DNA from: Methylophilaceae bacterium 11
GTDB lineage: Bacteria > Pseudomonadota > Gammaproteobacteria > Burkholderiales > Methylophilaceae
Assembly (NCBI GenBank): GCA_000525025.1
Contig: JCKJ01000001.1
Span: 1,736,001-1,800,000, forward strand
DNA: 64,000 nt
Direction of reading: 5' to 3'
In this document: positions 25,747 to 26,037 of the stretch, piece after piece
Position numbering within the stretch: position 1 is the stretch's first letter
Layout of the letters: every line of letters begins with the position of its first letter
The notes under the pieces: generated by a model
Databases searched by the model: none
Seen by the model: the letters and a program-made list of their open reading frames with translations, nothing else
Told to the model about the DNA's origin: nothing
Program-made: the position numbers and the translations under genes

Positions 25747-25826
25747 CCATAAAGCTGAAAATTTAGAAACGTGAGTTTAACATGATGTATATGGTGCATA
25801 AACAGTCATGATTACTTTATGTGTGG

Positions 25827-25866
25827 TGCACCATATATTTGGTGCATTAGGCACCATTTTGGTTCA
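25827..25866. promoter_or_regulatory. NtrC-like enhancer sites
   Basis: GGCACCA-TTT-TGGTTCA (25850-25866) matches the NtrC consensus TGCACCA-N3-TGGTGCA at 12 of 14 arm positions. Next to it TGCACCA and TGGTGCA (25827-25846) form perfect arms but with a 6-nt spacer. A further TGGTGCA half-site lies at 25792-25798. The 17-bp site is centred about 119 bp upstream of the start predicted from the sigma-54 promoter, a normal enhancer distance. Confidence 0.6.
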
Positions 25867-25950
25867 TGCGAACCACCACACACCGCCTCTAAACCAGCAC
25901 TTAATACCAGGATGTTCAATAACCCATTGAATTAAATAAACTAAATTACT

Positions 25951-25966
25951 TGGCACGGTGTTTGCT
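25951..25966 (+). promoter_or_regulatory. Sigma-54 (-24/-12) promoter
   Basis: TGGCACG-GTGT-TTGCT is an exact match to the RpoN consensus, with the -24 GG (25952-25953) and -12 GC (25964-25965) dinucleotides 12 bp apart. Transcription would start about 12 nt downstream, near 25977, on the plus strand. Confidence 0.8.
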
Positions 25967-25976
25967 AAACATAAAT

Positions 25977-26037
25977 TAAGCGCATATCTCCAAAATCGCT
26001 CCCCCTAGGCCCAACACTCGTGTTGGGCATTTTTTTG
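25977..26037 (+). ncRNA. Candidate sigma-54-dependent small RNA of about 60 nt
   Basis: Between the predicted sigma-54 start (about 25977) and a strong intrinsic terminator (8-9 bp stem 26009-26017/26020-26028 followed by T7 at 26030-26036) there is no open reading frame with a ribosome-binding site. The predicted transcript has a single-stranded 5' part with CU-rich stretches (ATATCTCC and CGCTCCCCC) that could pair with Shine-Dalgarno sequences, followed by the terminator hairpin. This is the layout of an Hfq-type regulatory RNA. The 3' end is well supported; the 5' end is predicted from the promoter. Confidence 0.6.
26009..26037 (+). terminator. Intrinsic terminator of the candidate sRNA
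   Basis: GCCCAACA and TGTTGGGC flank a CTCG tetraloop and are followed by a T-run (interrupted once by A). The orientation is plus strand, although no plus-strand gene lies between glyA (minus) and this site, which is why a non-coding transcript is inferred. Confidence 0.85.

Follow-up and report, generated by a model that had tools for sequence, protein, structure and literature searches.

A putative NtrC/sigma-54-type small RNA between glyA and iscX in Methylophilaceae

Introduction

Small RNAs (sRNAs) placed under nitrogen control have been described in distinct bacterial lineages. NrsZ of Pseudomonas aeruginosa is transcribed under nitrogen limitation with the participation of NtrB/C and RpoN and is described as a processed RNA of about 226 nt, encoded in the ntrC-PA5126 intergenic region, that activates rhlA (PMC8395346). 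GlnZ of Enterobacteriaceae is described as being cut from the 3′ UTR of glnA (PMC9731577). Other RNAs are of interest for their structural plan. The Burkholderia RNAs ncS03, ncS05, ncS27 and ncS62 (Rfam family RF02278) are short RNAs of two hairpins, and their unpaired, CU-rich stretches show complementarity to ribosome binding sites (PMC5688073), and S17 of Bordetella follows a similar CU-rich double-hairpin plan (PMC11722255); for these RNAs, action on ribosome-binding regions has been either predicted or shown (PMC5688073, PMC11722255). No Methylophilaceae sRNA was found in the open-licence literature, which is weak evidence of absence.

Here, a predicted sRNA found in a 64,000-nt stretch of the genome of Methylophilaceae bacterium 11 (the window, meaning the whole stretch analysed) is compared with these systems. 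The predicted regulator is what NrsZ and GlnZ have in common with the window RNA, while origin, size and location are not. The window RNA lies between glyA and iscX rather than between ntrC and PA5126, its predicted length is ~60 nt versus the about 226 nt of the NrsZ primary transcript, and it is probably a repressor, whereas NrsZ activates rhlA. In contrast to GlnZ, it is a free-standing unit with its own promoter, glnA being located elsewhere in the genome. The initial annotation had named NrsZ as the nearest known idea, with differing length and location; these differences hold, and the likeness is one of functional analogy only. The nearest RNAs in plan are the Burkholderia double-hairpin RNAs and S17, whose hosts are betaproteobacterial, as here. 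Yet S17 has a promoter of the sigma-A type and is processed by RNase E, whereas a sigma-54 promoter stands directly before the window RNA. Judged from its sequence, the window RNA most likely represents a family of sRNAs of the nitrogen regulon that are built on a double-hairpin, anti-Shine-Dalgarno plan.

Anatomy of the Locus and Proposed Mechanism

The gap between glyA and iscX contains, in plus-strand order, an NtrC-type site, a sigma-54 promoter and the predicted RNA with its intrinsic terminator:

25737, minus strand: start of glyA, upstream neighbour of the predicted sRNA
25792..25846, no strand assigned: extra TGGTGCA/TGCACCA arms (starts at 25792, 25824, 25827 and 25840), non-canonical spacing
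25850..25866, plus strand: predicted NtrC-type 17-bp enhancer site GGCACCATTTTGGTTCA, 2 mismatches to TGCACCA-N3-TGGTGCA
25951..25966, plus strand: sigma-54 promoter TGGCACGGTGTTTGCT, -24/-12 element TGGCACG-N4-TTGCT, exact match
25977..26036, plus strand: predicted small RNA of ~60 nt, match of covariance model R1 (G000:C1:1761977-1762036)
25979..26000, plus strand: hairpin 1 of the predicted folds, AGCG (25979-25982) with CGCU (25997-26000), loop with AUAUCUCCAAAAU
25987..25991, plus strand: UCUCC core, candidate seed for pairing, complementary to GGAGA, present in 65/65 accepted loci (accepted partly by UCUCC)
26001..26005, plus strand: CU-rich linker CCCCC, single-stranded according to sequence and predicted fold
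26009..26036, plus strand: intrinsic terminator, stem 26009-26028 and T-run 26030-26036; terminator hairpins and T-runs also in relatives
26131, plus strand: iscX, downstream neighbour of the predicted sRNA

The start at 25977 was placed about 12 nt past the C of the -12 element, and the distance from promoter to terminator gives the predicted transcript of ~60 nt. The centre of GGCACCATTTTGGTTCA falls at 25858, about 119-120 bp 5′ of this start. All the parts that the initial annotation had claimed for the locus were found again in place, namely the exact sigma-54 promoter, the NtrC-like site at its distance from the predicted start, the CU-rich segments ATATCTCC and CGCTCCCCC, and the strong intrinsic terminator. 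The further TGCACCA/TGGTGCA arms that it listed are also present, but those at 25827 and 25840 are separated by 6 bp instead of the canonical 3, so that only the 25850-25866 site displays the standard NtrC geometry.

The predicted fold comprises the AGCG/CGCU hairpin with the AUAUCUCCAAAAU loop, the CU-rich linker and the terminator, and its z-score was -2.34, with 5 of 200 shuffles equally or more stable. Covariation in hairpin 1 was high on the model-fitted alignment, in which the five rejected rows were still included, while the free stem test gave 9.99 versus 9.94 +/- 0.19, i.e., no covariation support for this stem. Since the covariation appeared in the fitted alignment only and the stem is missing in some members, the formation of hairpin 1 is considered no more than likely.

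The sequence features are probably best accounted for by a trans-acting, NtrC/sigma-54-driven sRNA of ~60 nt that would mask Shine-Dalgarno (SD) sequences by means of UCUCC and the CU-rich linker. When nitrogen is limiting, the phosphorylated form of NtrC would occupy the site near -120 and remodel the sigma-54 RNA polymerase at 25951-25966, and transcription would begin near 25977 and stop at the terminator, at ~26036. The RNA would then fold into two hairpins, exposing UCUCC in the first loop together with the linker, and both would pair, probably on Hfq, with the GGAG SD sequence of target mRNAs, leading to a translation block. We infer here the transcription of the sRNA, its NtrC dependence, the involvement of Hfq, the pairing and the targets.

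Conservation of the Promoter-RNA Unit

When up to two mismatches were allowed, 16 sigma-54 promoter matches occurred in the window against 17.6 expected, the sole exact one being that at 25951-25966. The promoter match in the window is by itself within chance expectation, and the claim therefore rests on the comparison with relatives. In the whole genome, 65 matches with at most one mismatch were found versus 19 for the reversed pattern. For three other exact matches of this genome (L001, L003 and L004), the 250 bp upstream contained no NtrC site when up to 4 mismatches were allowed.

A DNA search of 120 family genomes recovered a match in 25, and 21 of the 26 places listed shared the core AAGCGYATATCTCCAAAATCGCTCCC or a related sequence, preceded in every case by a GG-N10-GC element. 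A covariance model restricted to the RNA, devoid of the promoter and built from 15 distinct sequences (R1), matched 116 of 187 family genomes at E<=0.1. The sample read comprised the best match of each of 70 genomes, with about E=1e-4 as the lower limit; the weaker best matches, from 46 genomes, lie outside it. The RNA core was accepted in 65 of the 70 loci, which span four genera: g1, the window's genus (21 loci), g22 (13), g10 (4) and the Methylotenera-like g7 (27). Four candidate copies were rejected as they were without UCUCC (L097, L100, L105 and L106), and a fifth (L107) was rejected post hoc, by judgement, its UCUCC standing in an unlike context with no promoter.

R1 contains UCUCC, loci were found and accepted partly by this motif, and the promoter search demanded GG and GC; thus, the invariance of these letters in alignment A3 is, in part or entirely, a product of the selection. 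The presence of the promoter is nevertheless independent evidence, because it lies outside R1 and the shuffles obeyed the same demand for GG and GC. The class-defining GG-N10-GC in a TGGCAC-N5-TTGC-like context, exact in the window, was found as a -24/-12 element within 50 nt upstream in 64 of the 70 loci read (shuffle mean 1.55, maximum 6, 100 shuffles), and in those 64 loci the -12 C was separated from UCUCC by 19-25 nt. The relatives' RNAs finish in a terminator hairpin followed by a T-run. The recurrence in relatives of the -24/-12 element, the CU-rich segment and the terminator, which had been proposed at the outset as a check, was thereby confirmed.

The only accepted locus without a sigma-54 element within 50 nt is L066, in which an insert with terminal inverted repeats splits the element from the RNA. 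This insert of the Methylotenera-like genus (L066:1279-1510) is MITE-like, has ~200 bp, carries the inverted repeats TTAAGGAAACGCGGAATAA and TTATTCCGTGTTTCCTTAA and lies between the sigma-54 element and the RNA core, with glyA at a distance of 1259 bp.

A confirmed copy of the RNA was present in 65 of the 187 family genomes. Loss of rpoN as the cause of its absence elsewhere is unsupported, rpoN being found in 177 of the 187. In the order-wide scan of 399 genomes, R1 gave a match at E<=0.001 in 81, a figure that includes the family; outside the family, none of 19 R1 matches in the 17 loci read had a sigma-54 element at up to 3 mismatches. A second model comprising promoter plus RNA (R2) matched 36 of the 399 genomes at E<=0.01, full-length only in 3 genomes of the window's genus and partially in the rest. 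A contig search with an exact 21-mer returned 15 places, 14 of them in records labelled Methylophilus (8), Methylotenera (3), Methylophilaceae (1), Methylophilales (1) and an unclassified betaproteobacterium (1); the remaining one, in a Polaromonas MAG, was inside an open reading frame and was taken as chance. The plasmid search gave no match.

Two other observations were made in the course of these scans. In two genomes outside the family (f33; L110:1501-1669 and L112:1392-1550), two tandem UAUCUCCAAUACACCCC RNA-like units with a terminator were present per genome, devoid of a sigma-54 element and preceded by a common GATAAT stretch. On the minus strand of L036:1501-1586, in the same family as the window, the anti-hemB RNA (RF02837) was recognised with 64.4 bits against a cut-off of 49.5.

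The NtrC-Type Enhancer and the Activator

NtrC-type sites were sought as TGCACCA-N3-TGGTGCA with up to 3 mismatches and compared with 40 shuffles. The 17-bp site upstream of the promoter that is expected of the NtrC regulon, present in the window as GGCACCATTTTGGTTCA, was found in 17 of 21 loci of g1 (shuffle mean 0.38, maximum 2), 7 of 13 of g22 and 3 of 4 of g10 (no shuffle above 2), L052 being scored as a miss in these counts with an upstream flank of only 35 nt. The position of these sites is nearly fixed, 24 of the 27 being centred from -117 to -122 (16/17 in g1), and the site of L027 matches at all 14 fixed positions.

The window's own genome encodes rpoN, and ntrC and ntrB were found above the model cut-offs. 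Upstream of its glnA gene lie a sigma-54 element (L327:1687) and two NtrC-like sites, both with 3 mismatches. One of the two, CGCACTATTTTGGTTCA, agrees with the sRNA site GGCACCATTTTGGTTCA at 15 of 17 positions. Sites with 3 mismatches number 188 per strand in this genome versus 75 for the reversed pattern, so that a lone match of this quality is weak. The proposal that the parts fit a nitrogen-stress sRNA thus gains support at the sequence level, from the encoded RpoN, NtrB and NtrC and from the glnA upstream region.

The Methylotenera-like genus departs from this picture, with the canonical NtrC motif upstream in just 4 of 26 loci. In the same genus, 22 of 26 loci had GGTTG-N4-CAACC (up to 2 mismatches) in the upstream region (shuffle mean 1.5, maximum 4), and 15 of 26 had AACCA-N3-TGGTT. 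Either the NtrC half-sites may have drifted or another activator may have taken over in g7. This replacement of one motif by another, together with six further long NtrC-model matches that lie below the cut-off in the window's genome and are likely other sigma-54 activators, is what favours a sigma-54-dependent sRNA driven by another enhancer-binding protein and responding, in the Methylotenera-like genus at least, to a signal other than (or additional to) nitrogen. We regard this as unlikely, in view of the canonical, positionally fixed NtrC sites of g1, g22 and g10, the near-identical site upstream of glnA, and a longer variant in genus g11 that adjoins an ammonium transporter gene.

This longer unit was reached in two g11 genomes of the order sample through a promoter-only match of R2 (L310:1501-1630 and L313:1501-1630). 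A sigma-54 promoter is followed there by ~105 nt with AUUAUCUCCUCCUCCUC directly before the terminator, between the ammonium transporter gene and gshA (Pfam-confirmed for L310 only). Neither locus gave an Rfam match at E<=0.1 or an NtrC site with fewer than 4 mismatches in the 250 bp upstream. The g11 unit is possibly a cousin of the ~60-nt RNA.

Relation to Known RNA Families

No Rfam family reached its cut-off for the window RNA. Below threshold, SdsR/RyeB (RF00111) matched weakly along the full length of the model (29.5 bits against 38, E 0.0021), SraC/RyeA matched on the other strand (25.1 against 37), and RF02278, the Betaproteobacteria toxic sRNA, scored 18.1 bits against a gathering cut-off of 50. 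The weak SdsR and RF02278 matches and the similar CU-rich double-hairpin plan could suggest a divergent member of one of these families that had swapped its promoter, a reading that appears quite improbable, given that both scores lie under the curated cut-offs and that RF02278 exceeded its own in 0 of 120 family genomes and was absent from the window's own genome at E<=0.001. Moreover, the first stem and loop of the RF02278 consensus differ from those of the window RNA; the predicted fold follows the RF02278 plan of two hairpins with CU-rich unpaired stretches, which is a resemblance of plan only. As for SdsR, this RNA is sigma-S dependent, whereas the window RNA has a sigma-54 promoter.

Genomic Neighbours

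The divergent neighbour was glyA in 55 of the 65 accepted loci and the downstream one iscX in 44 of 65, loci with short flanks being scored as misses. Neither gene was found in 8 of the 65, and six of these were read: the RNA lies between map and rpsB in L083 and L088, between map and another gene in L079, between fabA and a MoxR-type ATPase gene in L093 and L108, and between an AsnC-type regulator and an aldehyde dehydrogenase-like gene in L069. Pfam supported these neighbours in one locus of each kind, the aldehyde dehydrogenase excepted. L096 and L099 resemble L093 in sequence. The cassette is thus found at other genomic places too, and its neighbours do not explain its conservation; the promoter-RNA-terminator anatomy is kept as one unit. 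Although the frequency of glyA and iscX beside it would suit a region without any regulatory RNA, in which promoter and terminator were leftovers, an iscX leader or a glyA insulator and the similarity were inherited intergenic sequence, such an account is very improbable, as the terminator closes the unit ahead of iscX, the conserved core is located between promoter and terminator, and all three persist beside different neighbours.

Candidate Targets

For the trans-acting, NtrC-controlled sRNA preferred here, targets were sought by complementarity to UCUCC, GGAGA being a common core of ribosome binding sites. The pattern TGGAGAT-N2-9-ATG occurred at 37 places in the window's genome versus 22 for the reversed pattern, and two genes of the PQQ methanol/ethanol dehydrogenase family, which we take to be XoxF-like, were among the matches. 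In the window's genus, GGAGAT was present in all 26 methanol dehydrogenase starts that could be placed (4 of 30 loci had no placed start), while in the window's own genome it was present in only 1 of 119 background starts. Plain duplex energy did not single out the two XoxF-like genes, which were equalled or exceeded by 40 and 29 of the 119 background starts, respectively.

Family-wide, GGAGAT was observed directly before the XoxF-type start codon in 45 of 58 placed starts (L207-L306), whether the RNA was present or absent; 12 of 70 loci in which no motif for placing the start was found were dropped from this count. It was found in 19 of 24 starts in genera with the RNA versus 26 of 34 in genera without the confirmed 60-nt RNA; seven of these 34 belong to g11, with its longer variant, and without them the count is 20 of 27 (recounted by eye). 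The conservation of the motif thus does not track the RNA, and XoxF-type methanol dehydrogenase as an established target was rejected on this co-occurrence control. UUUGGAG seemed, by eye, commoner where the RNA is present, in a pattern that follows phylogeny. On sequence grounds, the XoxF-type enzyme is kept as a candidate target only.

Significance

In its widest form, the proposal is of an unrecognised sRNA family linking nitrogen starvation to one-carbon metabolism, in which an NtrC-induced anti-SD RNA would repress mRNAs including those of XoxF-type methanol dehydrogenases, whose start region is UUUGGAGAU, with a cassette mobile between sites and an enhancer rewired in Methylotenera; this broad version is tentative and on the whole rather doubtful. 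Methylophilaceae are a group of industrial and ecological interest. If true, the finding would place a nitrogen-regulon sRNA in a family for which none was found in the open-licence literature. The compact unit of enhancer, promoter and 60-nt RNA would be suited to studying the post-transcriptional balance of carbon and nitrogen in methylotrophs, and it would bear on how CU-rich anti-SD RNAs fall under different regulators across lineages.
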